From: Alteromonadaceae bacterium
GTDB lineage: Bacteria > Pseudomonadota > Gammaproteobacteria > Enterobacterales > Alteromonadaceae
Direction: 5' to 3'
Assembly (NCBI GenBank): GCA_013373625.1
Contig: JABXHM010000083.1
Location: 1 to 64,000 of the forward strand
DNA length: 64,000 bases
Positions 37,254 through 60,338 of the stretch are shown piece by piece (position 1 is the stretch's first letter; every line of letters begins with the position of its first letter). Both the position numbers and the translations under genes were made by a program. The notes under the pieces are model-generated. The model saw only the letters and a list, made by a program, of their open reading frames with translations. It did not search any database and was not told the DNA's origin.

Positions 37254-38054
37254 CTAACCGTTAAGTAAACTAAGCACCTGACCCTGCTGCTGATTAGATT
37301 GAGCCTGTACCGTCAGGGCTGCCTGCCCGGTCACATCGTTAACGGCTTGCTGCGAAGCGGCTTGCGCGTAGTCGGTATCCTGAATACGACTTCTTGCCGC
37401 TGCCTGATTAACATTGGTTTCGGTTAAGTTTCGGGCCGTTGAATCAAATTGACTTTGAATTGCCCCCAAATCGCCGCGCGCACTGCCAACAGTTTCGATC
37501 GCACTATCTGCCGCGGCAAGCGCCTCATCGACTGATTGTGACGTAATATCTATGCCCAAAACATCTGACAAACGGCTGCCGATATCGTTAGTATCGACAC
37601 TGATATTCTGCCCTGCCTGACTACCTACCAGAAAATCAATGGAGCCTTCTTCCGATAGCAGTGGTTTACCGGCGAATTCTGTTCGCTCAATGGTTTGAGA
37701 TATATTTTCCTGCAGCTGAGTAATTTCAGATTGAATAGCCTGACGATCAGCGTCGCTTAAAATGCCGCTGCCTGCCTGTAAACTCAATTCCCGAATTCGA
37801 CTCACATCATTATTGATGCCTTCCAGGCCGCTCTCGGCAACCTGAGCCAGCGAGATGCCGTCATATGCATTGTTAACAGCCTGACGGCCGCCTTCAACTT
37901 CTGACGTCAGACGGTCGATAATTTGCTGTGCAGACGCCCCGTCGGCAGCACTATTTATTTGCTTACCCGACGCAAGTTGTTCTGACAGTTTGTTTTGTCG
38001 TTGCTGAACTTGTTCTAACAGCGACATTGGTTTGTCTGAATTAAAATTAATCAT
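37254..38054 (-). CDS. Flagellin, short and atypical
   Basis: Filament subunit of 266 residues from ATG 38054 (GAGG eight bases upstream). The GTG at 38063 is rejected. Conserved N-terminal (about 1-140: KLSEQLASGKQINSAADG, IRELSLQAG) and C-terminal (about 185-266) coiled-coil domains are joined by only a short middle. The N-terminus MINFNSDKPM and the C-terminus SNQQQGQVLSLLNG depart from the usual flagellin ends (VNTN near the start, Q-A-N-x-x-P-Q near the end). It has its own terminator. The adjacent glycan island could modify it. Confidence 0.88.
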   Translation of the reverse strand: MINFNSDKPMSLLEQVQQRQNKLSEQLASGKQINSAADGASAQQIIDRLTSEVEGGRQAVNNAYDGISLAQVAESGLEGINNDVSRIRELSLQAGSGILSDADRQAIQSEITQLQENISQTIERTEFAGKPLLSEEGSIDFLVGSQAGQNISVDTNDIGSRLSDVLGIDITSQSVDEALAAADSAIETVGSARGDLGAIQSQFDSTARNLTETNVNQAAARSRIQDTDYAQAASQQAVNDVTGQAALTVQAQSNQQQGQVLSLLNG

Positions 38055-38095
38055 ACCTTTCACCTCACAATCATTTTAGCACTTGCACAAACATT

Positions 38096-44911: not shown

Positions 44912-45673
44912 GTGGACATTATTAGTATTGATACCTGTAATTCCTCCCTGGATGTTCAGAAAACGAAGAGCTTGCTATACCAACTCAGCAATTCTGAGAT
45001 ACCCATTGTTTTTAAAAACGGCATGTCAAAAATGAATCGCCAGCAGTGGTATGACTTTCTTGAACAGGACTGTCAGCTTATCCCCGACAAGCGGCATTTT
45101 GACAATACCCAGTCGCTGAAAATCCAGGATTGGTGGGAAATTTCTTATCAACCCGATAAAGCTGAAACCTATGCTTATAGTGCTACACGACAACCATTAC
45201 ACACCGATAATGCATGGTTTTCAAACCCGGCAGAGCTCAATTTTTTCGTTATGCATAAACAAGCTATTGAAGGCGGCAAACAAACCATTTATCCGCTATC
45301 AATACTAATGGAAGATCTACAAACAAAAACACCAGAGTTATTGAATGACTTAACATCAATCCCGGTAACCATCAAAAAAGGAGAAGGTGCTGAAGAGCAT
45401 ATTACCCCAATAATCAAACTCGGAAACTCCCCAACCATTTTTTGGAATTATTACCGAACTCAGAAAGCCACACCTGCAATTGCAAATATGTGCCAGGCTT
45501 TCTTTGACTTTCTCGCAGAACAAGAAAATACCTCATCTGTATTCAGATTACCTTCAGATACGGGAGATTGTTTTGTTTTTAATGACGCCAAGCTTTTACA
45601 TGGGCGCGAAGCCTTTAGTGCACGCCAATCCCGCGACCGGGTGCTGTATCAATCTATGTGGCGATTACCGTGA
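44912..45673 (+). CDS. Fe(II)/2-oxoglutarate oxygenase, TauD/TfdA-like (GTG start)
   Basis: 253 residues from GTG 44912, with AGGGAA before it. The iron-binding triad is visible: H97-x-D99 in LHTDNAWF and distal H230 in LLHGREAF. A downstream Arg (R242 or nearby) can bind 2-oxoglutarate. It is tightly packed between wbqC and a sulfotransferase, so it probably hydroxylates or oxidises a sugar or its acyl group. The substrate is unknown. Confidence 0.8.
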   Translation: MDIISIDTCNSSLDVQKTKSLLYQLSNSEIPIVFKNGMSKMNRQQWYDFLEQDCQLIPDKRHFDNTQSLKIQDWWEISYQPDKAETYAYSATRQPLHTDNAWFSNPAELNFFVMHKQAIEGGKQTIYPLSILMEDLQTKTPELLNDLTSIPVTIKKGEGAEEHITPIIKLGNSPTIFWNYYRTQKATPAIANMCQAFFDFLAEQENTSSVFRLPSDTGDCFVFNDAKLLHGREAFSARQSRDRVLYQSMWRLP

Positions 45674-46521
45674 AAGAGAGACCTATTTTTTTACTAGGTG
45701 TTGGTTGTCAGAAAGGGGGGACCAGCTGGCTACACCATTATCTACAACATCACCCACAAGCGGATTTAGGGCTTGCAAAGGAATATCATTTTTTCAATGG
45801 TATGTATGCAGAATCAGGTCCTTCCGTAAGAGCATACTTTGAGCAACAATTAGCGGCTGCACCACCAGATAGTATTCTACACCAGCATTTAACACATCAA
45901 TTGAGCTTTTTTGAAGCGCCAAAACGCTACTATCAGTATTTTCAGTCATTAGACAAAGGGCTTGTAGGTGATATAACCCCTGCCTATGCGATGCTCAGCA
46001 AGGACACTTTTACTCTTGCAAAAACTCAATTGGAAGCACATGGATTCCAGGTCAAGGTTGTGTTCATTCTTAGAGATCCGCTAGAACGTATTTGGTCAGC
46101 AATACGCATGCACAAAAAAATTTATCCGCAAAACTTTATTAACAAACCAACAGCGGAATCAGATGATCTGGCAATCTTAAAGGCATACAACGAGTGGCAC
46201 ATTGAAGTTCGTACCCGGTATGAGAAAACCATTACAAATCTTGAAGCCGTGTTTTCAAGGGAAGCCCTTCACTATATATTCTACGAAGAATTCCCTACCC
46301 CGGATACCATGCAACCCCTGTGTGAGTTTCTGGAGATCGATTATATCGAGAAAGATTTTGCCACACGGGTAAACAGTCAGTCAAAATCGACCGAGTTATC
46401 ACTACAAACATGTGAAACCGTCATCAGACATTACGCATCCACTTACAAGTTCATTCAGGGGAAATTCGGCATTAACAAAGTCAATAAAATTTGGCCAAAT
46501 GCGTCAAAACTTGAGACTTAA
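45670..46521 (+). CDS. Sulfotransferase (PAPS-dependent)
   Basis: Transfers sulfate from PAPS. The 5'-phosphosulfate loop GVGCQKGGTSWLHHYL lies at the N-terminus and the 3'-phosphate segment VVFILRDPLERIWSAIRM in the middle. This is the Sulfotransfer_1/heparan-type arrangement. GTG 45670 overlaps the oxygenase stop as GTGA and is preferred; GTG 45658 in the same frame is possible. It ends the 43139-46521 operon, so sulfate is a likely final decoration of the glycan. Confidence 0.85.
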   Translation: MKERPIFLLGVGCQKGGTSWLHHYLQHHPQADLGLAKEYHFFNGMYAESGPSVRAYFEQQLAAAPPDSILHQHLTHQLSFFEAPKRYYQYFQSLDKGLVGDITPAYAMLSKDTFTLAKTQLEAHGFQVKVVFILRDPLERIWSAIRMHKKIYPQNFINKPTAESDDLAILKAYNEWHIEVRTRYEKTITNLEAVFSREALHYIFYEEFPTPDTMQPLCEFLEIDYIEKDFATRVNSQSKSTELSLQTCETVIRHYASTYKFIQGKFGINKVNKIWPNASKLET

Positions 46522-47302: not shown

Positions 47303-48439
47303 ATGGGAATGTTTTTATCGGATCTACAGGCAGTGCTGCATGTGTTAGGTAATACACATTACGATAAGGATTGTGTGGTCACTTATGGAACACAAACTAT
47401 TCGCGGCCCCTTAAGCGACGTCATTGCCTACAGTGTTAAAAACAACCTTGAATTAAATGATATATCTGAAAAGGACCTTTACAGTGAGAGTAAGAGAGGT
47501 CTTGATTCAAATCTTGAATGCAATGTCTTATTTAAAATGCTTGGGTTCAAAGAAATTATCAACCTCGACCTGCTTAAGAATACGCCATACGCTTATATCC
47601 ATGATTTATCGACCCCCATACCTGAAGACATGCATGGTATTGCCTCCCTTGTAATAGATGGTACAACCGGATATCACGTTTTTGATAGAGCTCAGTCTCT
47701 GAAAAATGTTGCTCGACTGCTTGCCAAAGGCGGACTTGCTATTCATACCTTTTTGATTGATCCTCTTAAACCGCATTTTACTTCTTACAATCCTCAGTCA
47801 CTTGCCCAATTCTATTTAAAAAACGGTTTTGGAGAGCTTCAGTTGTATGTGTGTAACCGAGCTCAATCCAATACGTTTTATAAATTTCATGGTGATCTCA
47901 ATGGTCCCATTGGTCTCGATATGAGCGAAAAATATTGTCTTGTTTTTGCTTGCAAGAAATTGGAAGACGTAGAAGTGACGTCCAATATAATTGAACATGG
48001 TTATAGCCAGACTATTAGGTATCAGGAACTAATAGATAGTTTAGCTTCAATTCTTAACGGTAAAAAATATGCAGTATGGGGCACCGGGGCTCATTACGAA
48101 AGGTATTATCGTTCTTTCGTCAGTGCTGCCTGCAATCAAGAAAAGATGTGGGGATTTGTAGATAATGATAAACAAAAATGGGGGCAAGACTTAGATGGTT
48201 TCAAAGTTCATTCTCCCAAAGATCTTGTGGAGTCCGGTGTTGAGATCGTATTAATTGCAAGCCAAAGACAACCTGAAATTTTTCAGCAACTCTGCGAAAC
48301 ACTTTATTCCAATGTAAATGCTATAAGAAATACCTATTTGCTTTATCAGGACAATATAGACATTAAACGCTTAAATAGAGCAATGGATGAATATACATTT
48401 AGTCTTGGCATAAAAAACCCAATGTCATTAGTAAATTAG
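47303..48439 (+). CDS. Methyltransferase-like protein with C-terminal Rossmann domain
   Basis: 378 residues, strong ribosome-binding site AAGGAAAG. The N-terminal part (about 60-200) resembles a class I SAM methyltransferase (NLDLL, DLSTPIPEDMHGIASLVIDGTTGYHVFD, RLLAKGGLAIH), but the usual glycine-rich SAM loop is weak. The C-terminal part (about 248-340) is a separate nucleotide-binding-like domain: KYAVWGTGAHYERYY, GFVDND, VLIASQ. A degraded copy of its last 60 codons lies at 51889-52068. The exact reaction is unknown. Confidence 0.75.
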   Translation: MGMFLSDLQAVLHVLGNTHYDKDCVVTYGTQTIRGPLSDVIAYSVKNNLELNDISEKDLYSESKRGLDSNLECNVLFKMLGFKEIINLDLLKNTPYAYIHDLSTPIPEDMHGIASLVIDGTTGYHVFDRAQSLKNVARLLAKGGLAIHTFLIDPLKPHFTSYNPQSLAQFYLKNGFGELQLYVCNRAQSNTFYKFHGDLNGPIGLDMSEKYCLVFACKKLEDVEVTSNIIEHGYSQTIRYQELIDSLASILNGKKYAVWGTGAHYERYYRSFVSAACNQEKMWGFVDNDKQKWGQDLDGFKVHSPKDLVESGVEIVLIASQRQPEIFQQLCETLYSNVNAIRNTYLLYQDNIDIKRLNRAMDEYTFSLGIKNPMSLVN

Positions 48440-48579
48440 TGTGATTACCAAGGGACTATGTCGGTCTGGTTACCGAGCGACTTTGTCGTAGTAAGCATAT
48501 CAGCCAGTTGTTAAACTGCTATGATTTGTGCCGATACTGGAGTGAGCGCGAATTCAGTTAATAACCTGCTAAACCGCTA

Positions 48580-49359
48580 TATTTTTAATATCAGTTGCAA
48601 CACAACCATACGATTTTACAATCACTTAGTGACCTTGCCCTATCTCGCATTTCTGGCGAAAGACAAGCTGGAGCCTGCCACTAACGCTAGCGCTGATCCT
48701 CGCCGCGCTTATCTAGCAGCGGCGCTGCCTTTATATTGTTGATCTGTTATGTTTGCTATTATTAGCATAATTATGGCGGTTCTATTAATGATAGCGCCGC
48801 TTGTGATGATGACCTTAATCGCCTTAGCCAGCATCTTTTTAGGGCTGAACATTGTGCTGGAAATACAAGCCCTCTGGGTGAGTGTTGGCGATGTGACTAA
48901 AACCCAGTCGTATTTCCAGATAGTGCGAAAAACAATGTTATTTACGGCTCAGGCAAAGAAGAATATGATGAGCAACGCGTTTGGGATGGCCTAAAACTTG
49001 CAAAATCTAATTATTTGGTTAGGGCTATAAGAATGGATTAGAGACTGTTTTGCTGAGTGATACAGCGTCACTCTCGGGTGGACAAAAACAGCGCTTAATG
49101 CTGGCGCGTATGTTTTATCGCCAAGCAGATATTCTCATTTTGGACGAGGCAACCTCTGTATCGGATAAGTATGACCGAGCAAGCCATCAACACTGCACTA
49201 GATGCTTTAAGAGCTCAGGGGAACGACCATATGTATCGCTCACCGCTTGTCGACCATTCAAAAAGCCGATAGTATTTTATCGCTTGATAATGGCGTACTT
49301 GAAGATCAGGGAACGCTTAATGCCCTGCAAACACAAAACAAATTATTTAATAATAGTTA
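48580..49359 (+). pseudogene. Frameshifted ABC exporter remnant (membrane part plus ATPase)
   Basis: Pieces of one type I ABC exporter appear in shifting frames. A transmembrane segment (YNHLVTLP, then FAIISIIMAVLLMIAP) comes first. ATPase pieces follow in order: NNVIYGSGKEEYDEQRVWDG, a broken linker, LSDTASLSGGQKQRLMLAR (signature motif) with Walker B ILILDEATS, TEQAINTALDALRAQ, and IAHRLSTIQKAD (H-loop). At least three frameshifts and a deletion containing Walker A make it non-functional. It may once have exported a polymer or peptide of this island. Confidence 0.8.
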
Positions 49360-49374
49360 GTGGAGCTTGCAAAA

Positions 49375-50319
49375 TTGACACACGCGAATGAAATATACGA
49401 CCACCTTAATGCAGAGCCCCCGCAAATATCTCTCGAAGCGATTTCTACTGAGATTGATTTAAAGTCAGTTCGAGATGTTATGTTCTATAATATCGGCAAA
49501 ATTCCCACTCTCGCAGGTCCGCGCGTTGTTCCATGCGCCAAGCCTAATCACATAAAAGAGGCATTACGCTCTACAAACATTGTTGGCATCATAACGACAG
49601 ACGCACTCGCCGATCAGGTACCGGAACATTTAGGCTTGATTGTTGATGATAACCCCATCAGAGCTGCGTACCTTATCCATGAGCATCTATGCACTGTGCC
49701 TGGTCACTATTGGCAAGATTTTCCAACAGTTATATGCGATACCGCCACCATTCATCCAAATGCCAGCATCGCCGATAAAAATGTTATTATCGGTCAGCAT
49801 TCACAAATTGGTGCAGGCACTGTGATTGCAGAGCGCACGCTCATTGGAGCGCATTGTGATATTGGGCTAGGCGTAACCATTGGTAGTGACGCCTTTGAGG
49901 TCGTTACTTTACACAACAATAAACGCAGAGTTTTGCGTCAAGGCGGTGGAGTACGAATCGGCAATCACGTTACCATTCAGTCACAAAGCAACATCGTGCG
50001 CGCCACCTTTGCAGGCTTTACCGAAATTGGTGATGAAACCTGTATTGATGCGTTGGTTCATGTGGCGCATGATTGCATAATCGGAAAACGAGTAACCATT
50101 ACGGCCTGTGCCGAAATTTCTGGCCGTGTCCACGTAAAAGACAACGCGTGGCTTGGCCCTAATTGTTCGATTGTAAATGGCCTGACCATTGGCGAGGGCA
50201 GTAGAGTAAGTATTGGCTCTACAGTTATCAGAGATGTCATGGATGGGCAAACGGTCACAGGAAACTTTGCGATTGAACACCAGAAATGGCTTAAATTTAT
50301 ACGCTCACTTGTCAAATAA
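49375..50319 (+). CDS. LpxD-like sugar acyltransferase (left-handed beta-helix)
   Basis: About 314 residues. The N-terminal domain (about 1-95) resembles the uridine-binding part of LpxD. Hexapeptide repeats (IHPNASIADKNVIIG and onward) then form a beta-helix with the catalytic His in LVHVAHDCIIG. It is unlikely to be the housekeeping LpxD, given its island setting and GSDAFEVV in place of the usual LpxD G-x-D-G-F. TTG 49375 has GGAG nine bases upstream; GTG 49360 is the alternative start. It probably acylates a sugar nucleotide. Confidence 0.75.
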   Translation: MTHANEIYDHLNAEPPQISLEAISTEIDLKSVRDVMFYNIGKIPTLAGPRVVPCAKPNHIKEALRSTNIVGIITTDALADQVPEHLGLIVDDNPIRAAYLIHEHLCTVPGHYWQDFPTVICDTATIHPNASIADKNVIIGQHSQIGAGTVIAERTLIGAHCDIGLGVTIGSDAFEVVTLHNNKRRVLRQGGGVRIGNHVTIQSQSNIVRATFAGFTEIGDETCIDALVHVAHDCIIGKRVTITACAEISGRVHVKDNAWLGPNCSIVNGLTIGEGSRVSIGSTVIRDVMDGQTVTGNFAIEHQKWLKFIRSLVK

Positions 50320-50343
50320 CCTTCCATTGAGGATGCACACAGC

Positions 50344-51474
50344 ATGAACATTATCTCTGTAATCGGTAACCGTCCTCAATTTATCAAGGCCGCAATCGTA
50401 CAAAAGGCCTGGCGTGAATCACCAATGCGTGAGGATATGAATTTTAAGTTGGTGCATACAGGCCAGCACTACGACACCAACCTCAGCGACATTTTTTTTG
50501 AGGAGCTTCAAATCGGTGAACCTGATTTTCACCTGAATATCGGCTCCTTGAGCACAACAAAACAAATTTCCACTATGATCGCCAAATTATCAGATGTGTT
50601 TGAATCAGAAAGCCCTGATGCTGTGGTTGTTTACGGAGATACAAATTCTACAATTGCAGGCTCCATTACGGCCGGGCACATGAACATCCCTGTGATCCAT
50701 ATTGAAGCGGGAGAACGCATGTATCTGCGTCAAAACCAGCCTGAAGAGTTGAACCGTATCGTCACTGACACACTCGCTAGCTTGTGCCTGACAGCCTCCA
50801 AAAAGGCCGAAGTTCAATTAAAAGCAGAAGGCATCAACGCCGAACGCATCAGCTTTACCGGTGACACAATGTATGATTTGTTCTTAGCCACACAGCCTAA
50901 AATAACCGATAACGCTGATGCTATGTTGACACGCTACAATCTGACTGCAGACAACTATGTACTTGCGACCATTCACAGAGCAGAAAATACTGATAATCAC
51001 GAGGTACTGTTAAATATTTTTGAAAATTTAGACAATTGCGATTCTACTGTTGTCATGCCCCTGCACCCTCGCACAGCAAACATTTTAAGAGAGTTGGGGT
51101 GGACCGCCAAGAACAACCTTCAAATCATTGAGCCTGTTGGTTACTTTGATATAATGGGATTATTACATCATGCGCGCCTAGTTGTAACAGATTCTGGCGG
51201 CTTGTCGCGCGAAAGCTTTTGGGCAAAGAAAGTCAGTATCGTACCCATGAGCGCCCCTCCATGGCCGGAAATTCACCAATTAGGCTGGATGAATATGGTC
51301 GTGCCGCATGGTGATGCCATCGCCCAAAAGATCCAGAGTGCCAGCCCATCCACAAATTGGCCAGACGACCTGTTCGGCGAAGGCAATGCCGGCGTCAAAA
51401 TTGTGGCGCGAATACATGATTTTTTAAGCGCTCGAAATCAGAGCGCAATTACATGGCGACCAAACGCCCTTTAA
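50344..51474 (+). CDS. UDP-GlcNAc 2-epimerase family protein (non-hydrolysing, WecB/WbpI-like)
   Basis: Epimerises C2 of a UDP-sugar. The 376-residue protein has the family start NIISVIGNRPQFIKAA, the VVVYGDTNSTIAG and HIEAGERM blocks with catalytic Asp/Glu, ATIHRAENTDN (catalytic His) and VTDSGGLSRESF. The last differs from the common DSGGxQEE. It follows the LpxD-like gene by 24 bases. It could act on UDP-GlcNAc3NAcA and so replace the broken epimerase at 54737, but its specificity cannot be read directly. Confidence 0.85.
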   Translation: MNIISVIGNRPQFIKAAIVQKAWRESPMREDMNFKLVHTGQHYDTNLSDIFFEELQIGEPDFHLNIGSLSTTKQISTMIAKLSDVFESESPDAVVVYGDTNSTIAGSITAGHMNIPVIHIEAGERMYLRQNQPEELNRIVTDTLASLCLTASKKAEVQLKAEGINAERISFTGDTMYDLFLATQPKITDNADAMLTRYNLTADNYVLATIHRAENTDNHEVLLNIFENLDNCDSTVVMPLHPRTANILRELGWTAKNNLQIIEPVGYFDIMGLLHHARLVVTDSGGLSRESFWAKKVSIVPMSAPPWPEIHQLGWMNMVVPHGDAIAQKIQSASPSTNWPDDLFGEGNAGVKIVARIHDFLSARNQSAITWRPNAL

Positions 51475-51690
51475 CGCGTGTAACGCATTTAAGAAATGCT
51501 CTGTCAATCTCTCATAGTTATGGTGTTCCAAAACAAAACTGCGTCCACTCTCACCCATTTCTTCGCGTCGAGCGGCTTCAAACAAGCCATCGTTTATATG
51601 ATCTGCAATATCTTGAAGATTTCCACCATCCACTTTATAGCCACAATGTCTGCTCTGGACGATGTCGTTTATAGGTATGCGTGTTAGCTG
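51424..51690 (-). pseudogene. C-terminal remnant of a glycosyltransferase family 4 gene
   Basis: A 69-codon open stretch continues upstream without a start. It translates to the tail of a GT4 enzyme (HCGYKVDGGNLQDIADHIND, REEMGESGRSFVLEHHNYERLTEHFLNAL). The homology stops near 51690 at an in-frame stop, and the catalytic core is missing. It overlaps the 3' end of the epimerase gene by about 50 bases on the opposite strand. Confidence 0.75.
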
Positions 51691-51888
51691 CTAGCAATGA
51701 TGTCCTTTTCAAAGATCGGCATCTCAATGTGCAGAGTGTTTTGCTTGTAGTCTAGTGTCCTTTGAGGTAGAAAAATTCATTACCCTAGGTTCGGAATACG
51801 TACACAAGAGACTGTTAGTTTAGATCTCGCTCTTTTGTCAAAAATTTCAGATTAAGTCGAGACTAATTCAACTAGTGATAACTGCTTA

Positions 51889-52068
51889 TTAGTTGCAAGC
51901 CAAAGACAGCCTGAAATTTTTCATCTACTCTGCGAAACACTTTATTCCAATGTAAATACAATAAGAAATACCTATTTGCTTTATCAGGCCAATATAGACA
52001 TTTAACGCTTAAATAAAGCAATGGATGAATTCACAATTAGTCTTGGAATAAAAAAACGAATGTCATTA
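51889..52068 (+). pseudogene. Duplicated tail of the 47303-48439 gene
   Basis: Aligns without gaps to 48251-48430, the last 60 codons, with 15 mismatches in 180 bases (about 92% identity). An in-frame AAA-to-TAA change breaks it. The sequence just upstream (51841-51888) does not match the parent gene, so only the tail was copied or retained. Confidence 0.85.
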
Positions 52069-52081
52069 TGACATTCTTTTT
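52058..52081 (+). terminator. Terminator-like hairpin at the end of the duplicated tail
   Basis: GAATGTC pairs with GACATTC around ATTAT, followed by TTTTT and preceded by AAAAAA, so it could act in both directions. It lies 24 bases past the stop of the minus-strand gene at 52105. The parent copy near 48430 lacks this hairpin. Confidence 0.6.
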
Positions 52082-52104
52082 CTTAAAGGTAGAAAGTTTG
52101 AAAA

Positions 52105-53196
52105 TTATAGCCATTTGTTCTTTAACTGTTCAATCTCCGCTTTACTGTAAAGAGCTGTTATATATTTTGAGCGATAAAGTCTATCTAGTTGCCACTCAGT
52201 GAAGGTTAGTTCTGTATGGACCATTTTGTATAGTTGGCTGTACCATTTTTCACTTGCATCGTTTTCACGCTGCAACGAAATCCCACCCTTACCAACAAAG
52301 TCCATCAGTGGCTTTTCTAGTTCACTAAGATATTCGTGTTTATATAAGAAAAGATCACAATACTGATTCTGCAACTGCCAGCAAGGAGCTTCCGGGTCTA
52401 AATCACCAAATTCAGGTTGAATGAATAATCCAAGTTGCTCTTCAATCCAATTATCCGTGTAATAGGTATCGAGATATCCAAAGAGTATGTTGCAAAAGCA
52501 GTCTAAAAAACTTTCATTATCAATAAGCGACAGTTCACATCGCTCATAAAGCATGAAATGTAGTGACTGAAAAACAATAGATATCCCTCTTGCTACCGGG
52601 TCGCGTACCCCGGTTACTATGCGTAATTTACTGCTCCTTTGTGACAATACACGAGGTAATCGGTAACGAGCATAATACTCAAGTGCAGGCTCATAAAATT
52701 TGACAGGTAATCGCTCTAAATCCCATTGTCTGGATACATTTGCCAACATTCCGGGGCCAATACAGTGAGACTTAAAATTTTCAACTCCGGCCCGGTTGAG
52801 TGCATTGCATATTGCATACGAACCGACTTTCCCAGGTTGAAAGACAAACACGCCCTGAGTATCTTGTATAAAACCAAGCAGATACTGGATGTACCGCCAT
52901 TGGTCTACAAAACCTTTTTTATTTTCTACTACCAGATAATCGTAAACCTTCATTGAGTTGAGTTGCCTACGCATCTCAAGACGTGAGACCCCACAAAGGT
53001 GGATAATATCGCGCTCGATTTGGTTTATCTGACTGACGTGAAATACGGGAATATTCTGTATTTGTGTACCCGATTTAGCCTCATCATTATCGATAAATCC
53101 AACCACTTCTGCACCTTGCTGATGCAGTTGTTTCAGGTGCATTTTCCCCGCAACGCCTGCGCCGAAAATAACAATCTTTTTATCTGACAACTTCAT
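52105..53196 (-). CDS. Rossmann domain fused to NKWYS/sulfotransferase-like domain
   Basis: 363 residues from ATG 53196 (CAGG eight bases upstream); the frame to 53223 is longer but unsupported. The N-terminal domain (about 5-100) is a small Rossmann type (IVIFGAGVAGKMHL, GFIDND). The C-terminal domain begins VFVFQPGKVGSYAICNAL, a P-loop-like PAPS-binding start. It has an R-D-P segment (VTGVRDPVARGISIVF) and an EKWYSQLY motif close to the NKWYS capsule-synthesis family. It overlaps the upstream gene by 17 bases. Sulfotransfer is plausible but unproven. Confidence 0.7.
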   Translation of the reverse strand: MKLSDKKIVIFGAGVAGKMHLKQLHQQGAEVVGFIDNDEAKSGTQIQNIPVFHVSQINQIERDIIHLCGVSRLEMRRQLNSMKVYDYLVVENKKGFVDQWRYIQYLLGFIQDTQGVFVFQPGKVGSYAICNALNRAGVENFKSHCIGPGMLANVSRQWDLERLPVKFYEPALEYYARYRLPRVLSQRSSKLRIVTGVRDPVARGISIVFQSLHFMLYERCELSLIDNESFLDCFCNILFGYLDTYYTDNWIEEQLGLFIQPEFGDLDPEAPCWQLQNQYCDLFLYKHEYLSELEKPLMDFVGKGGISLQRENDASEKWYSQLYKMVHTELTFTEWQLDRLYRSKYITALYSKAEIEQLKNKWL

Positions 53197-54655
53197 TAAA
53201 TATACCTGCCCATTGCTTTGCAATCCATGCCAGATCGAAGAAACGAGTGGCCTGCTGTCTGTTGTAAATACGCTGTTCTTCAGTTAACAGTTGAATCACC
53301 TCTCCTTGCAACAGGAGGTTTGAATCCATAACCACCATACCGTAACGCTCAGTTAAATGTGCCCATAAGCTTTTGTTTTGCCGGTTAATATATAGAGTTG
53401 CGCCGGTGTATAACAGCGCATACATCGTCGATAACGCAATTTGCGTAGTAGTATGCATAACTGCAACATTAATCGTAGATATCCATTTCCCGTAGTCTGC
53501 AGGCGCCATAAATGTTTTCAAGGCGAAATAGTCATCAAAAAGTAAGCCACCTTCCTGAGCCACTTTATCTGAATAATCATCCCCGCCATACGACAATGGA
53601 GTTATTATTTTGTGATGGGCATTATTTTGAGCCATCGCGCGCAAAATAGGTATGTGATGCATTTCTTCTACAGCACTATGACCTACCATTACATGAGTTT
53701 TTTTATTTCGTAGATGGCGATCGCTTAGATATTCCGGCTTTAATGGATTTGGGTAAAAACCGATGAAGTTCCGCGCAGCACTGAGATAGCGCTTACTGGC
53801 ATGTATGAAATCATATTCCATAAAGGTAATTAGGTTTTGAAACATGCCTTTACTAGCACTTATCTTTTCTTCTATAAACCCCTCACGGGTTGGCACAACA
53901 TGAATATCTCTTCCCCAGGCAACCCAACTGGCGTTTTTATTCAGCTCAGGATCCAGAATAAAAGGAAATCTCGCGACATTGAAATAACTATGAACCATAA
54001 CATGACGACTCTGAGCTATAGCCTTTGCAAAAGTTAGTACATCCCTGATTCGACAAGGGTACCAGCAGCCACTTTCATAAAATACTTCGGGGATATCTTT
54101 TGAGTCAGCACTAAGAACTTGGTGCGAATCACCCGCGGTATGAAAAATAAAACGATGATCCGAGTGATCAGATTTGAGCATTGTTCTGAACGATTCTGCA
54201 AAGCCACCTTTTGGCATTATATGCAAAATACCGTGAGAGGTATTATTCTTAAGTTTAAAGAACCTTTTCGCACAGCTGTATAAAACCTTAAAAGAGTAAA
54301 ACTGCCATACTACCCAAAACTTCGTAGGAGAACTCTCAACAACATCATAACAATGGCAAAACGGAATATTAAGGCCGAATAATTGGTTGAGCATCTGTTC
54401 ATAATATTGGCTGGTGACCACCACATAATCTGGTTTCAGTGAGCTAATTTGTGCAAACGAAAAAATGGGGATACCCGCCAGGTTTCCCCCGGCCTTTTGG
54501 GGATCATTATCCACAAACCCAACGATATTCAGTCTGTTTTTAAATTCGGACAAGAAAACATTCCCCATCCCTGAAGCTCCAAATAAAACAATACGTTTGG
54601 CATTTTGAATTTGCTGCTTAGATTGACTCTTATCTCTCAACATAAACTCCTGCAT
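53180..54655 (-). CDS. Rossmann domain fused to GT56 (WecF-like) glycosyltransferase
   Basis: 491 residues. The N-terminal domain (about 17-100) has RIVLFGASGMGNVFL, GFVDND and YVVVTSQ. The rest (about 140-491) resembles TDP-Fuc4NAc:lipid II transferase WecF: FPFILDPELNKNASWVAWG, HVMVGHSAVEEMHHIPIL, KIITPLSYGGDDY and INRQNKSLWAHLTER. This predicts transfer of a 4-amino-4,6-dideoxy sugar, consistent with the VioA-like transaminase. ATG 54643 has AGGAG close upstream and is an alternative start. Confidence 0.75.
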   Translation of the reverse strand: MQEFMLRDKSQSKQQIQNAKRIVLFGASGMGNVFLSEFKNRLNIVGFVDNDPQKAGGNLAGIPIFSFAQISSLKPDYVVVTSQYYEQMLNQLFGLNIPFCHCYDVVESSPTKFWVVWQFYSFKVLYSCAKRFFKLKNNTSHGILHIMPKGGFAESFRTMLKSDHSDHRFIFHTAGDSHQVLSADSKDIPEVFYESGCWYPCRIRDVLTFAKAIAQSRHVMVHSYFNVARFPFILDPELNKNASWVAWGRDIHVVPTREGFIEEKISASKGMFQNLITFMEYDFIHASKRYLSAARNFIGFYPNPLKPEYLSDRHLRNKKTHVMVGHSAVEEMHHIPILRAMAQNNAHHKIITPLSYGGDDYSDKVAQEGGLLFDDYFALKTFMAPADYGKWISTINVAVMHTTTQIALSTMYALLYTGATLYINRQNKSLWAHLTERYGMVVMDSNLLLQGEVIQLLTEEQRIYNRQQATRFFDLAWIAKQWAGIFNEVVR

Positions 54656-54736
54656 AACGGCTTGTAATAGCCCCTACTATCAATTTGGATGCATTACCAT
54701 TTGCATAAATGGTCATCAGGAATACTGCATGTTTTA

Positions 54737-55353
54737 TTAACCACAGCATTTCAAAACCGGAGTAACTTCAATCACACTGTCAGAAAATACGAGTTGGTAT
54801 TGCTTCATAGTAGATCTTCTACACGGATGAAGCGGAACGACTTCTGTGGCTATTGAACTAACTTTATTTATCGCCTCGAGTAGCTTTTCAAACCGCGACT
54901 TACTATCTGTATTTTCAGCGCTATGCGGAGTCAGCAATTTAAAGCAGTCTGGATAATTGATCTCAGGAGAGAACGAGCCTCGGCTATAAAATAAAGCACA
55001 ATCCATCATGACACTGCCCACGAGTGTAATTTATATTTAAGGTACACCAGCCTTCTACTCTCAGACTACTTACTACATGTTTAGATATACAAAAAAGAAA
55101 AGAACTTTTTCGTTCAGTCAAAATTCTGTTCACTCCTTCTGGTATTTGCATGTTACCCCTGCGTAAGCCTGCTTCAACATGAATAACCGGTACCAGCATT
55201 TTTGCGGCTGCCAACGCACCAGATAATGTTGAGTTAGTATCACAATAAACCAAAGCATAATCTGACTGCTGAACTAGTAGCTATTGCCCGACTTACTGTG
55301 GGCGCTTTATTAAACTGTTGCCTGGCTCCAAGTACCGTCAATATTTTAGCCAA
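54737..55353 (-). pseudogene. Broken UDP-GlcNAc 2-epimerase (WecB/WbpI-like)
   Basis: Three frames together give an epimerase: AKILTVLGARQQFNKAPTVS (start), then YCDTNSTLSGALAAAKMLVP with HVEAGLRR, then DCALFYSRGS, HSAENTDSKSRF and EVVPLHPCR. About 60 residues near the N-terminus and the last third are missing, with at least two frameshifts. It overlaps the stop of the GT4 gene at 55346, as if once coupled to it. It is the wreck of a second epimerase for the ManNAc-type arm of the pathway. Confidence 0.85.
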
Positions 55354-56497
55354 GTTTATCTCTTTTCACGACAGCTAAAACATTGCTGGCAACAACGCGC
55401 CAGGATATCCGATTGCGCGCAAATTTCGCAATGTCAGTTTTTCTTATTTCTATAGCTGTTAATGCTTTGTAGAACTTAACCACATCATTAATATCCACTG
55501 CTGTGTCATTCTCGGGAACTTTGAGTGCATAGGGGTTATCGTACAAAACAGTATCTTCACAGCTATATATAACGGGCAATCCTGAAGCAAGATACTCGCG
55601 AACCTTTAAGGTTGAGCTACGATATAGGTTGATGCGATGTATACCTAAACTTCCAATTGCAACATCAGCACCTATAAATAACTTATTAAGTGCGTCACCA
55701 GACTTAAATCCATGGAACTGCACACTCCTGTGTAATTTCATTTCATTGGCTAACGCTTTCAATTTTGGCAGAGCTTCGCCCTCACCAACGATATCTAAAT
55801 TCACTGTTGTCGCATGTGGAGCTCCGTAATATTCCATCATACCTTTAAGAATTCTATCGACCCCGTGCCAAAGGCTAAGGTTAGCCACTACTAGCAGGTT
55901 AATCCCTTCCGATTTATTAGGCGACGAGGCAAGTCTGTACTTCGCGAAATCATTGATCATTGATTCGCTTAACTGATTGTCAAATGGGTGGTTAACACTC
56001 CCCATTATTCGCGGTTCATAGGAAGTCGAAAATACATGGTCAACATGTTCAAGCATGGCCTGCCGGTTTGCACGCACGGTATCTAAGTTCGCATCAGGCA
56101 ACTCAGACTCGTAAGGATATGTTGGAAATTCGATACATTTCAGCGCGGATGATTGCTGCCCAACTTGCTCAAAGAAACGCGCTAAAGTGGGTGAATGAAG
56201 CATGGGTTCGTAACGTACGTAAATGAAGTCAGGTTGCACATGACTTACAACACTGACGGAGTTTTCCCAAAAGGTCACCGGTTCATCCTTTGCGTTGATG
56301 CCCTGAAACGCCAGCGACTCTGTGACAAACCGGTTGTCATGATACTTCGCCAGGGTCTGAGTACCATACGACATATACAAGCAGAACACCTCACAACCGG
56401 CTTGTTCAAACCCTTCCAGCTGGCCCTTTATTTTATTAAAAACACCCGCAAACTGCTGGGAGTGTTCATTGATGCGACTTATTAACAGGACTCTCAA
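55346..56497 (-). CDS. Glycosyltransferase family 4
   Basis: GT-B enzyme of 383 residues. The N-terminal Rossmann half starts MRVLLISRINEHSQQF. The C-terminal half has NLLVVANLSLWHGVDRILKG, VQFHGFKSG and the donor-binding segment LKVREYLASGLPVIYS. The sugar and acceptor are unknown. Its 3' end runs into the broken epimerase. It is followed (56498-56664) by 167 bases without a gene. Confidence 0.88.
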   Translation of the reverse strand: MRVLLISRINEHSQQFAGVFNKIKGQLEGFEQAGCEVFCLYMSYGTQTLAKYHDNRFVTESLAFQGINAKDEPVTFWENSVSVVSHVQPDFIYVRYEPMLHSPTLARFFEQVGQQSSALKCIEFPTYPYESELPDANLDTVRANRQAMLEHVDHVFSTSYEPRIMGSVNHPFDNQLSESMINDFAKYRLASSPNKSEGINLLVVANLSLWHGVDRILKGMMEYYGAPHATTVNLDIVGEGEALPKLKALANEMKLHRSVQFHGFKSGDALNKLFIGADVAIGSLGIHRINLYRSSTLKVREYLASGLPVIYSCEDTVLYDNPYALKVPENDTAVDINDVVKFYKALTAIEIRKTDIAKFARNRISWRVVASNVLAVVKRDKLG

Positions 56498-56664
56498 ATT
56501 GACTACCTTTTCTCTGTAGCAACGTGCAATTTCACAGCACTTATTAACCAGCTTACAAAAAGCTTAAAAGGGGATTGATTTGCGGTTTGCGCCAATCAAC
56601 CCATTTAGCAGCAACATTGCTTAGCTATCGGCATCATAACCAATTCCATTAATCAGCGGCAGGA

Positions 56665-58038
56665 CTAAAAGTTTAACTCCGAATAGATATCGAGGACTTT
56701 ATTCTCAAGTTTCAATGAGCGCAAAAAAGCCATAATCTCCCAATAGTAACTCTCACTGCAAATAAGGATACTCTCAACCTCTGTGAAATCGATGTCGTTG
56801 AGAGGTAAATATGAAACCCCCTCCAAATGCTTCGGTTGGTCAACATCCTTACTCGTGCCAATGCAGCTATTCACTCGAGCCAAATCAACCCATTTTAACC
56901 AGCGTTTAAGGCCCGCACCATCTCCCCATAACAACAACTTTTTAGACGGCGCTACTTGTTGTAACCGATTAATAATGTTCGTTAATTGTCGTTCCGATAA
57001 CTCAAAAGGTCTTACAGAATAACAAGTTGATAATATATTTTGGTCGGTATAAAAACGCTCAGTTTTCCTGTAACGTCTGTAAAGCAAAGCAAGAATCTGC
57101 TCAATCCAGGGGCCATCCTCCTGTGCACTCGGTGAGCAAAGAATTTCCTGGCGGCAACGCAGCAGCATCCAAATTAGCTCTTGTAGCTCAATATGGCCAA
57201 GGGACTCTTTTGTATTTGATTGTGCCTCATTGATTCTGTCTTTCAGCGGACGGCTGACCAGATCATAAAAGCCATATTTTAGTGCTCCGGTGAGAGCAGA
57301 AACTAACCAGAAAAAACTTAGCACGGCATGCTGCATCTGAGCTTCAGTTAGCAAGTCTGCAAGTACCCTGGCCCGGCTGAGGCGCATGCTCTCAACCTTA
57401 TTCGACATGGATTGACCATGAACAAAATAGTAGCAACCGATACTGTGGCAGGTAACCACTTTCACGCCATTAAGCGCAAGGCGAAGGTTAAAGTCATAAT
57501 CCTCATGCCCTCCCTTGACTTTATCAGACGTTGAGAAGCCGCCAGCCTCAACCACCAGCGCAGTGGGATATAAAAAAATATGTGGCGGACCAATATTAAT
57601 TGCTGCGAGACCGTCAAAAAAATCGCCGAACTTAGGCATAATAACCTGATCGGCGCTGTCATCGCTTCGGGTTAAACAGTAGCCAATAATCGATAGCGTA
57701 TTAGTACTTGCTCCTAACGAAGACAACTGTGTTTCAATACAATCCGGCAGTAGCCAGTCATCTGCATCGAGAAACTTAATATAATCCCCGCCAGCCTGAG
57801 CAATACCTGCATTACGCGCTGATGATAAGCCTTTATTTTCTTGCCTGATAAGCTTAATCCGGGAGTCGGCTGGAAAGTCTTTCTGAGTGATCGGGTCTTC
57901 ATTACCGTCGTCAACAATCAGGATTTCGATATTAGAATGAGACTGCTGAATGCATGAGTCGACAGCCCGGTATAAGAACGCAACCTGCTGATAGCAAGGA
58001 ATAACGATGCTAACAAGTGTGTGCTCTGCCAGACTCAT
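56665..58038 (-). CDS. Glycosyltransferase family 2 with C-terminal Rossmann-like domain
   Basis: 457 residues. The GT-A domain occupies about 8-230: VSIVIPCYQQVAFL, EILIVDDGN, NKGLSSARNAG and the metal-binding DAD at 91-93. A helical linker follows. The last 100 residues form a separate domain (KKLLLWGDGAGLKRWLKW, then ILICSESYYWEIMAFLR) like those on four other island proteins, though without the FxDND element. It overlaps the HAD gene by four bases (ATGA). Confidence 0.82.
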   Translation of the reverse strand: MSLAEHTLVSIVIPCYQQVAFLYRAVDSCIQQSHSNIEILIVDDGNEDPITQKDFPADSRIKLIRQENKGLSSARNAGIAQAGGDYIKFLDADDWLLPDCIETQLSSLGASTNTLSIIGYCLTRSDDSADQVIMPKFGDFFDGLAAINIGPPHIFLYPTALVVEAGGFSTSDKVKGGHEDYDFNLRLALNGVKVVTCHSIGCYYFVHGQSMSNKVESMRLSRARVLADLLTEAQMQHAVLSFFWLVSALTGALKYGFYDLVSRPLKDRINEAQSNTKESLGHIELQELIWMLLRCRQEILCSPSAQEDGPWIEQILALLYRRYRKTERFYTDQNILSTCYSVRPFELSERQLTNIINRLQQVAPSKKLLLWGDGAGLKRWLKWVDLARVNSCIGTSKDVDQPKHLEGVSYLPLNDIDFTEVESILICSESYYWEIMAFLRSLKLENKVLDIYSELNF

Positions 58039-60338
58039 AGGCTTATCACTTCAATATCATCAGCCTGTCCGGTTTCAACGGCCAGGTTGTAAATGTTTTT
58101 GGCAATATCATCCTTAAAGGCAAACGAGGTTACAACAAACTTTCGGGAACCTTTTTCCAGCGCCGCCGCCAAACTATTAACACTCAACCCCTGCACCAGA
58201 TATTCACCGCTTAATTCAGCTTTGCGATCAACTAAACGTTCAACCTTAAAGTTATGCGCTGACGCAACCTCATAAAATTGTTCAAAGAAAATTCCAGCAC
58301 CGTAAACAGTAAAATTACGCCATTGCTTTTCTTCGATAAGCTTTATCAGGTTAACAATATTCAGGTAGTTGTTATTGAGTAATAAGCCTGCTTTGCGGAA
58401 GTGAAAATCAGGATCAAGTAGCGTAAAAATGGCCTGAGGCCAATGTAACACGCCAATTTCCCAGTGTTCAAATGCATAAAAGGTTGAATGTGCCTGCTCA
58501 ACGCCGAGATTGTTAACGACAGCAATTTGCTCATCATTGATGATGGGGTATGAAATGTCGGCGCCAAAATTGTCTTCATGGTGCAGCCGCGTGTATATAT
58601 TTGCCTCTTCAAGCGTTGGCATTCTGACGAACCGCGACAAAATCGCTACCGCGCCTCGCAAAGAGGACTGAGGTAAACTATAGCGAACGAACAAATCAAA
58701 AAATTGCTCAACGCCGTGATAAAAACTAGTTACTAACGCGTCGTTCTCTTTAGTCGCGCTGCCAAGCTGTGGTTCACCTGACGAAGAGTAGCCCAGCGTA
58801 GTACCAATGTTTCCTAACAAAAAGCTCTCTATACACTCCGGTGAGCGAGCCAAAAGCCGGCGTAAGTTGTCGCTATCATTGTGGGCAGCAATAAATGACT
58901 GATAAAGCGTATCGAGACGACCATATATCCTGCTGGTAGAATACAGTAATAAATTCGCTGCAGCGCGCATCCCAAGGGTTTGCTCAAGATGGTTTTGAAT
59001 TGTGCCGCCGTTCCCTAAGTCGACCGTTACACACTGGCTAAAGTCCGTGCCAACCGCTTGCTGATAGTACGCCATAAACTGCGATTTCTGTTGAGCGATT
59101 TTAGCTTTGATCGGCTGCGTGTTCGCTTTTGCTTGTTGACACAACAACTTAAAAACCGACTGCCCTTCAAAATAAACGCCGTCGGTCTTTTTAAAGTCCA
59201 GATCTGCAAACTGGTTTAGCAATGCCTTTGGTGTAAAACCAAAATCTTTACAAAAATCAGCAACACTATAACCACGCCGACCAACGAGAATTTTAATGAT
59301 GTCTCCAAACCAGTCATCACTGGCGATATCTATGGAAGGCCAAAACGTCGATTTACGTGATGCATAAAATTTTACAACTTCAATTGTGCTAAGTTGGCGC
59401 TGTAATAACCGTTTTTCTATTAACGGAGCGAACACTTCTCCTTCTCTCATGACACATAAAATATGCGAAGCTTGCTGAGTTACAGCGTTATCGATGACCC
59501 AGTCACAAAAACTCAAAAGTACCGGGCCCCATATTGTGGCCCCTAGTTCATAGCAGGGTACATCTACGTGCGACGGACGGTGTAAGGTGGCTAACTGCCT
59601 GATAGCATTACAATCAACACGTGCATTAAAAATTTTATTTTCAGCTTCTGTAATGCGCTTTAAATTAAACTCTGGTGCAGCGTGAATTGCCTCAATTCCC
59701 AGTAAGCGCGGGTTCTTCACATCGGATGTCTCATGATCCCCCACATGCAGCCATTGTTTATAATCAACATTATAGATAGCACGGATATTTTTGAATAATT
59801 CACCGGATGCTTTGTTTGCCTGCTGTTCGCAAGATACAAATAACGGTATTTCAGCTAACGCTGGTTCGTTATAAAAAAAGCACTGCCGAATCTGCGCTGC
59901 TGTCAGATACATATCAGAAATAAAGATGATTTGAGTTCCCAGCTTTAGCAGCTCAAGAATCAATACTTTTAACTCGGCATCAATAAAACCATTGCGCTTT
60001 TCTGCGGCTAACTCAGCCTGCAGCAACCTTTCCTGATCTTTTGCCGACACTGGCAAAGTCGCAATAATTTGCTGCAGACTGACTTCTCTGCTCTTCGTTT
60101 TATTTTTTAAGTTCCTTTCAGCAAATTGCCTCAGCTCTTCGTAATCACGAGCGTTTAACTGCATTCCAAGCTTATGACTTACAGAGTCGAAAGCCTCAGC
60201 GAAAACGGAGGTAGGTTTGTCTGTTTTTCTGTAAATAAGGGTATCGAAGAGATCAAAAGAAACCAGCTTGACTGGTTTATTATCAATGGTATGACGTATC
60301 TGCTCTACAAGAAAACTCATCATCTGTGACTTAACCAC
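58035..60338 (-). CDS. HAD-superfamily protein (COG5610-like) with C-terminal Rossmann domain
   Basis: 767 residues. The N-terminal HAD domain (about 22-230) has motif I SFDLFDTL (D29), IIFISDMYLTAAQI (motif II Ser) and HVGDHETSD (motif IV). A large middle region (about 260-660), typical of polysaccharide-cluster COG5610 proteins, contains CVMREGEVFAPLI and VTVDLGNGGTIQ. The C-terminal domain (about 675-767) has NFTVYGAGIFFEQFYEV and KFVVTSFAFKDDI. It lies between the LicD and GT2 genes with overlaps at both ends. The phosphatase or phosphotransferase substrate is unknown. Confidence 0.75.
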   Translation of the reverse strand: MVKSQMMSFLVEQIRHTIDNKPVKLVSFDLFDTLIYRKTDKPTSVFAEAFDSVSHKLGMQLNARDYEELRQFAERNLKNKTKSREVSLQQIIATLPVSAKDQERLLQAELAAEKRNGFIDAELKVLILELLKLGTQIIFISDMYLTAAQIRQCFFYNEPALAEIPLFVSCEQQANKASGELFKNIRAIYNVDYKQWLHVGDHETSDVKNPRLLGIEAIHAAPEFNLKRITEAENKIFNARVDCNAIRQLATLHRPSHVDVPCYELGATIWGPVLLSFCDWVIDNAVTQQASHILCVMREGEVFAPLIEKRLLQRQLSTIEVVKFYASRKSTFWPSIDIASDDWFGDIIKILVGRRGYSVADFCKDFGFTPKALLNQFADLDFKKTDGVYFEGQSVFKLLCQQAKANTQPIKAKIAQQKSQFMAYYQQAVGTDFSQCVTVDLGNGGTIQNHLEQTLGMRAAANLLLYSTSRIYGRLDTLYQSFIAAHNDSDNLRRLLARSPECIESFLLGNIGTTLGYSSSGEPQLGSATKENDALVTSFYHGVEQFFDLFVRYSLPQSSLRGAVAILSRFVRMPTLEEANIYTRLHHEDNFGADISYPIINDEQIAVVNNLGVEQAHSTFYAFEHWEIGVLHWPQAIFTLLDPDFHFRKAGLLLNNNYLNIVNLIKLIEEKQWRNFTVYGAGIFFEQFYEVASAHNFKVERLVDRKAELSGEYLVQGLSVNSLAAALEKGSRKFVVTSFAFKDDIAKNIYNLAVETGQADDIEVISL

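Follow-up and report, generated by a model that had tools for sequence, protein, structure and literature searches.

A Rossmann-type accessory domain on five unrelated glycan enzymes of an Alteromonadaceae locus follows the locus rather than the enzyme type

The window analysed here is a stretch of 64,000 nucleotides of Alteromonadaceae DNA (assembly GCA_013373625.1, contig JABXHM010000083.1, positions 1 to 64,000). In one glycan locus of the window, a small Rossmann-type domain is attached to five different proteins, termed here the methyltransferase-like (MT), NKWYS, GT56, GT2 and HAD proteins. Its distribution follows the locus and not the enzyme type: if one protein of a cluster bears the domain, unrelated neighbours tend to bear it too. 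The superfamily of the domain is already known and its pattern of use is new; no publication describing this pattern was found in a library of open-access PMC papers, to which the search was confined.

Several described systems are related to it. The PF13727-type domain of WbpM/FlaA1, of the large phosphoglycosyl transferases and of WbaP (its 'DUF') is likewise a small accessory Rossmann-type unit on unrelated polysaccharide enzymes (excerpts of PMC10942596). The WbaP domain is reported to be stabilised by uridine mono-, di- and triphosphate (UMP, UDP and UTP) and to make up a large part of the dimer interface, and the WbaP enzyme to be inhibited by UMP at 4.1 µM (same excerpts). For EpsZ, a response regulator was modelled on the domain dimer (excerpts of PMC12802240). 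PglD_N (PF17836) belongs to the acetyltransferases PglD, NeuD and VioB, and Methyltransf_14 (PF08484) is the C-terminal part of sugar C-methyltransferases. One of the five partner enzymes resembles Bcs3, whose transferase draws ribose phosphate from phosphoribosyl pyrophosphate (PRPP) and whose HAD module strips the phosphate (excerpts of PMC10299916).

Profile matches place the domain of the window in one broad group with the N-terminal domains of the PglD/NeuD type, the C-terminal domains of sugar C-methyltransferases and the soluble domains of WbpM/FlaA1 dehydratases. The match to 3nkl (WbpM-like) had an expect value (E) of 2.9e-12, that to VioB 8.6e-6 and that to the MtmC-type 4rv9 3.6e-6. 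Unlike in the PF13727 proteins, the domain is found here on soluble glycosyltransferases (GTs), methyltransferases, LicD, HAD/ribosyltransferase and other proteins, with many copies per locus. PF13727 gave no match in the five window proteins at E ≤ 1, and a transmembrane bundle before the domain was not seen, as judged by eye only. For the NKWYS protein, PglD_N reached 26.4 bits in the genome search, which is over the cut-off, and 23.2 bits against the cut-off of 23.4 as a whole protein; GT56 stayed below the cut-off, and MT, GT2 and HAD had no match. The order of PglD, with the domain followed by hexapeptides, was observed in two other loci (L137:3551-4444 and L123:15322-16233), whereas the partner enzymes of the window are not acetyltransferases. 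Methyltransf_14 scored 28.0 bits with GT56 (cut-off 23.5) and 11.8 with NKWYS, and did not match MT, GT2 or HAD; it matched 8 of the 66 copies of the domain that were aligned. The MT-like protein of the window, unlike the sugar C-methyltransferases, is not a PF08484 protein. The family C2185-like_N was matched by 6 of the 66 copies. The uncharacterised protein 2g6t, grouped here with this family, is the best Foldseek match of the GT2 domain, and its profile match begins after the Gly loop.

Homology and fold of the five domains

An earlier note on this DNA had pointed out five open reading frames (ORFs) with a shared domain, placed C-terminally on the MT, GT2 and HAD proteins and N-terminally on the NKWYS and GT56 proteins. 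All ORFs and placements were borne out by the ORF list and the profile placement. The homology was tested by leaving out one domain at a time: a profile built from four domains was searched for the fifth and then iterated without the left-out protein (Table 1). The best reversed decoy across the five runs had a value of 0.027, equal to the direct value of HAD. The HAD domain was not above the decoy level directly and was reached via other HAD proteins as a bridge. According to these profiles the five window proteins share one homologous domain, HAD only after iteration, and the domains are real copies of one accessory module of about 75-90 residues.

The final profile found no match among the other 15 window ORFs of at least 150 amino acids (aa) that start after position 38000. 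These unmatched ORFs include the dehydrogenase-like ones, a 347-aa Gfo/Idh-like and a 447-aa UDP-sugar-dehydrogenase-like ORF (names by eye). In the host genome of 5.09 Mb the five copies are the only profile matches at E ≤ 1e-5, all in one locus. A chance likeness of Gly-rich loops is ruled out by the leave-one-out profiles together with this single-locus result. In Pfam searches at E ≤ 1, the domains of NKWYS (PglD_N) and GT56 (Methyltransf_14) alone could be clearly assigned to a family, and those of GT2 and HAD showed weak overlaps (Epimerase 0.044, LPD7 0.14). The MT-like protein had no Pfam match at E ≤ 1 and no NCBIfam family match at the limits used. The common domain of the five would stay hidden in Pfam searches alone.

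For the fold, two models were made, one of the GT2 domain, which is the weakest case and was modelled with 66 relatives, and one of the HAD protein. The GT2 domain was predicted as a small Rossmann-like domain with a local distance difference score (pLDDT) of 87.5 and a template-modelling score (pTM) of 0.78. With this model, Foldseek found 2g6t (1.8e-4, TMq 0.68), 3nkl (5.6e-3) and other Rossmann proteins, with one match below 0.001. In the predicted HAD protein (pLDDT 88.4, pTM 0.81), residues 675-766 keep the strand and helix order of the GT2 model. A common fold, as previously proposed, is supported by the leave-one-out profiles, by the equal strand and helix order in both models and by the Rossmann matches of the GT2 model.

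In both models the domain begins strand-helix-strand, a beta-alpha-beta start with the Gly-rich loop, and the first loop Gly is present in all five window copies. In the alignment of 66 copies, 64 rows have a letter at this position and all 64 are Gly; the third loop position is Gly in 54. An acidic residue ends strand 2 in four of the five window copies, with Thr in GT2; an Asp follows strand 2 in 60 of the 66 copies and a Ser follows strand 4 in 64%. The suggested conserved pocket is visible in the sequence columns as the Gly loop and the Asp of four window copies, and is incomplete in GT2, where the Asp is missing. At the last position of GxGxxG, 31 of 64 copies have retained the Gly and 8 have Phe. 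Within the window, this motif is complete in NKWYS, reads GASGMG in GT56 and has no last Gly in MT, GT2 and HAD. Two further motifs named in the earlier note held for some of the copies: GF(V/I)DND for three of the five, with LVDRK in HAD and Thr in the Asp column of GT2, and the strand end TSQ/ASQ/TSF for GT56, MT and HAD, not for NKWYS and GT2. In a set of 12 HAD relatives, which come from several phyla, the domain residues that never vary are YGAG (679-682), D704 and I745. The domain is conserved there like the rest of the protein, as 6 of 95 domain positions and 31 of 672 other positions are identical in all 12.

One partner with matches to solved enzymes is the HAD protein. A profile of the 12 HAD relatives matched Bcs3 at 1e-78 and 7shg at 9e-59, covering positions 7-626, and Foldseek matched the HAD model to Bcs3 at 3.5e-24. 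Profile and fold matches span both modules, a HAD phosphatase joined to a PRPP-type transferase. The name 'HAD protein' is right for the phosphatase and leaves out the ribofuranosyltransferase and the added domain. Profile and model thus identify the window protein as a putative ribofuranosyltransferase of the Bcs3/7shg type with the domain added. The likeness to Bcs3 CrpP-CriT and 7shg comprises the HAD and transferase part; the window protein bears the extra C-terminal domain, whereas Bcs3 bears CroT and SH3b instead (excerpts of PMC10299916). Since the solved ribofuranosyltransferases are without the domain in the matched part, it is an addition and, judged by sequence, at least one partner does not need it for its core reaction.

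Occurrence of the domain across loci and genomes

The association of the domain with loci was tested in 80 loci, obtained from named records by a scan with the HAD alignment and picked by similarity to the domain-bearing HAD alignment. The HAD ORF bears the domain in 11 of them. In all 11, the domain was present on another ORF of the locus, versus 3 of the 69 others (Fisher 3e-11). When the profile was trained on the earlier loci only, the result was 11/11 versus 2/69, and 8/8 when the training-set loci were removed (2e-9). Among the loci having a GT2, it was 8/8 with a domain-bearing HAD versus 0/36. In one exception, L124:9959-12035, the HAD enzyme is divided between two ORFs that overlap, and the domain is on the second of them; this locus stays counted among the 3 of 69. 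Of the GT2 ORFs themselves, 12 of 19 carried the domain in loci with a domain-bearing HAD versus 0 of 78; 9 of the 12 are in L137 and L123, and without these two richest loci 3 of 10 versus 0 of 78 were left (p 0.001). The co-occurrence supports the view that the copies of one locus matter together.

A cluster either has many copies of the domain, at most 15 within 23 kb, or has none, and both kinds of cluster can be present in a single genome. The genome of L137 (G419) has 29 copies, 15 in C1:79416-102059, 9 in C20:32119-50161 and 5 elsewhere. Its GT2 matches carried the domain in 9 of 11 cases in these two clusters versus 0 of 21 elsewhere (p 2e-6). In the genome of L123, 13 of the 36 copies are in C17:50337-72445, 7 in C8:8598-19306 and 16 scattered; two groups of GT2 matches had the domain on 5 of 7 and 3 of 4 members, and 11 other groups of at least two GT2 had none nearby at the E cut-off. 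In the window genome it is on 1 of 11 GT2 matches.

A search for other loci with three or more such fusions, which had been proposed as a check, was successful. Among 148 genomes of the order, five including this one had at least 3 copies on one contig within 25 kb (G000 5, G047 5, G057 4, G051 3, G029 3), and stronger cases were found elsewhere. A match at E ≤ 1e-5 was observed in 68 of the 148. Lone matches of about 650 aa were common across the order, and all four that were checked were Polysacc_synt_2 proteins of the WbpM/FlaA1 type. In the class, 73 of 274 genomes had a match, and among the matches listed, three copies were located on contig G379:C513 besides this genome. In 93 sources, 69 domain-bearing ORFs were found in 22, with 11 in L137 and 10 in L123. 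Their Pfam partners include GT2, GT4, GT8, GT61, LicD, FkbM, hexapeptide, WcbI, cytidylyltransferase-like and MptE-like proteins. In L137:806-18600, 11 of the 16 plus-strand ORFs of at least 110 aa bear the domain, and two ORFs resembling ATP-binding cassette (ABC) transporters by eye are without it. In three Alteromonadaceae loci (L112, L113 and L114), a protein of about 745 aa encoded close to the HAD enzyme ends in this domain as well. The leading Pfam family is PglD_N, which matched 10 of the 66 copies at E ≤ 0.01.

To follow the origin of the copies, the nearest copy was determined for each of the 66, with partner labels that were assigned partly by Pfam and partly by eye. It had the same partner type in another locus in 23 cases, another partner in the same locus in 11, both in common in 3 and neither in 29. 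Domains that share a locus are diverse, and their mutual similarity is only a little above expectation (equalled in 29 of 2000 shuffles of the labels; three MTTPR rows were omitted from one mean). Recent copying of one domain within a locus is mostly ruled out by the nearest-copy counts, except for the adjacent genes of NKWYS and GT56. These two ORFs overlap at 53180-53223, and no other pair among the five domains is as similar (31.5% identity), which points to a possible local duplication. On the HAD tree, a rough FastTree calculation with long-branch warnings and two rows dropped, the 12 domain-bearing rows need 5 changes, of which at least 3 are forced by the starred branches. One old gain inherited as a block is not supported by these 5 changes. 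Because the copies are seldom nearest to a neighbour and the tree needs 5 changes, the pattern looks as if it was assembled more than once.

The window locus and its surroundings

The positions of the five proteins, of their domains and of a broken second copy of the MT-like C-terminal end are given in Table 1.

Table 1. Domain-bearing proteins of the window locus and related features. E values are from the leave-one-out profile searches, direct and after iteration.
Feature	Position	Strand	Size or residues	E direct	E iterated	Remarks
Methyltransferase-like (MT) protein	47303..48439	+	378 aa			Domain C-terminal; methyltransferase name by eye
Rossmann-type domain of MT-like protein	48047..48334	+	~254-330	1.1e-11	4.1e-13	Short flanks included
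Broken second copy of MT-like C-terminal end	51880..52071	+	314-377			77% identity, two stops
NKWYS-family protein	52105..53223	-	372 aa			Domain N-terminal; PF10364 1.8e-11 at residues 254-360
Rossmann-type domain of NKWYS protein	52918..53196	-	~15-88	3.4e-10	3.5e-16	PglD_N match
GT56 protein (WecF-like Fuc4NAc transferase)	53180..54655	-	491 aa			Domain N-terminal; NF002756 3.4e-43 over 142-487, below curated cut-off
Rossmann-type domain of GT56 protein	54338..54610	-	~20-92	4.6e-13	1.6e-17	Methyltransf_14 2.1e-6
GT2 protein	56665..58038	-	457 aa			Domain C-terminal; PF00535 4.5e-28
Rossmann-type domain of GT2 protein	56680..56958	-	~366-439	1.3e-3	1.6e-4	Most diverged copy; no Asp after strand 2; Foldseek matches
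HAD protein (putative HAD phosphatase + PRPP-type ribofuranosyltransferase)	58035..60338	-	767 aa			Domain C-terminal; Bcs3/7shg profile and fold matches
Rossmann-type domain of HAD protein	58050..58331	-	~673-749	0.027	1.1e-13	

Two other stretches of the locus appeared broken by eye. An ABC transporter-like stretch at 48480-49391 contains an ORF with an LSGGQ-like motif (49050-49391), and a stretch at 54737-55258 resembles the WecB-like UDP-N-acetylglucosamine 2-epimerase, of which an intact ORF is located nearby at 50344-51474. The proteins at 52105-53223 and 45658-46521 have loops which, by eye, we take to resemble sulfotransferase motifs. Flagellar genes at 15000-38063 with a flagellin-like ORF (37254-38063; by eye) adjoin the glycan island, which makes a flagellin glycan or a surface glycan a possible product.

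Possible role of the domain

We tentatively favour, by analogy, a nucleotide-binding-like accessory module whose action is tied to the locus and most likely consists in the nucleotide-gated control or the assembly of the pathway. The Gly loop and the Asp after strand 2 would form the site for a nucleotide or a nucleotide sugar, and binding there would alter the activity or the association of the carrier enzyme. All enzymes of one glycan pathway would then respond to one signal or assemble in one state. The model for such a mechanism is the WbaP domain with its uridine nucleotides, its dimer interface and the UMP inhibition (excerpts of PMC10942596). In a more far-reaching form, which we consider possible and hold with greater reserve, unrelated enzyme families of one cluster would be fitted with the same nucleotide-responsive association domain, and the assembly line would be formed or throttled together.

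Several points weigh against a nucleotide-responsive module acting per locus. In the window locus, the ORFs at 49360, 50344, 55346 and 60331 are without the domain, and in L113, L114 and L118, whose HAD enzymes bear it, none of the 6 GT2 ORFs does. The co-occurrence counts refer to sequences of related taxa and not to independent events, and the choice of the 80 loci by similarity to the domain-bearing HAD alignment weighs on them. The Asp after strand 2 is absent in 6 of the 66 copies, 5 of them on GT2 proteins including that of the window. Since GT2 copies are often without this Asp, one uniform ligand is doubtful; these copies may have another ligand or have lost it. Direct profile matching to WbaP was weak, with an E of 0.08 for one profile (A1) and no listing of WbaP at E ≤ 1 for another (A3); the link to WbaP runs through WbpM-type proteins, of which PF13727 matched 2 of the 4 checked. 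For WbaP itself, a reviewer remarked that UMP may just compete at the active site (excerpts of PMC10942596).

If the domains bound each other as homo- or heterodimers and held the cluster enzymes together, with a Gly loop that is structural, a scaffold alone would be sufficient. The pattern per locus suits such a scaffold, in particular L137 with its 11 of 16 ORFs and the two transporter-like ORFs left out, as do the dimer interface of WbaP (excerpts of PMC10942596), the regulator modelled on the EpsZ domain dimer (excerpts of PMC12802240) and the related Bcs3, a multi-enzyme machine in a single chain (excerpts of PMC10299916). A pure interface, however, fits the near-invariant Asp after strand 2 less well than ligand binding does, and the domains of one locus are barely more alike than the shuffled labels predict. 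We regard a mere scaffold as unlikely.

We find it improbable that each domain only helps the enzyme it sits on to bind that enzyme's nucleotide sugar, as happens in PglD and the sugar C-methyltransferases, with a clustering that has no joint meaning. The ribofuranosyltransferase type uses PRPP and not a nucleotide sugar, as described for Bcs3 (excerpts of PMC10299916), and its solved relatives are without the domain. The 11/11 versus 3/69 and the all-or-none GT2 groups would also be left unexplained, although the profile matches to VioB and the sugar C-methyltransferases and the 23 of 66 copies nearest to the same partner type in another locus are in line with donor binding. To the same degree we doubt a neutral gene pool, in which domain-bearing versions are common in the polysaccharide genes of some lineages and travel together. 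The bacterial taxa of the 80-locus sample are indeed related and the domain-bearing HAD rows cluster on the tree, but a single genome can contain both GT2 clusters with many copies and GT2 clusters without any, and the domain-bearing partners differ from locus to locus. A Rex-like NAD(H) (nicotinamide adenine dinucleotide) sensor coupling glycan synthesis to the redox state is very improbable despite the profile match to Rex (6e-9), as the last Gly of GxGxxG is so often missing or Phe and its loss in a Rossmann fold suits a dinucleotide poorly.

It is an open question how the soluble glycan enzymes of one pathway are coordinated or held together; a feedback domain shared by two enzyme types was floated in the WbaP study (excerpts of PMC10942596). 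The domain-rich loci beside domain-free loci in the same genome are a natural experiment on the ligand, the contacts and the role of the domain in each enzyme. With the profile of the domain, many unnamed protein ends that escape the current Pfam families would also become easier to annotate.

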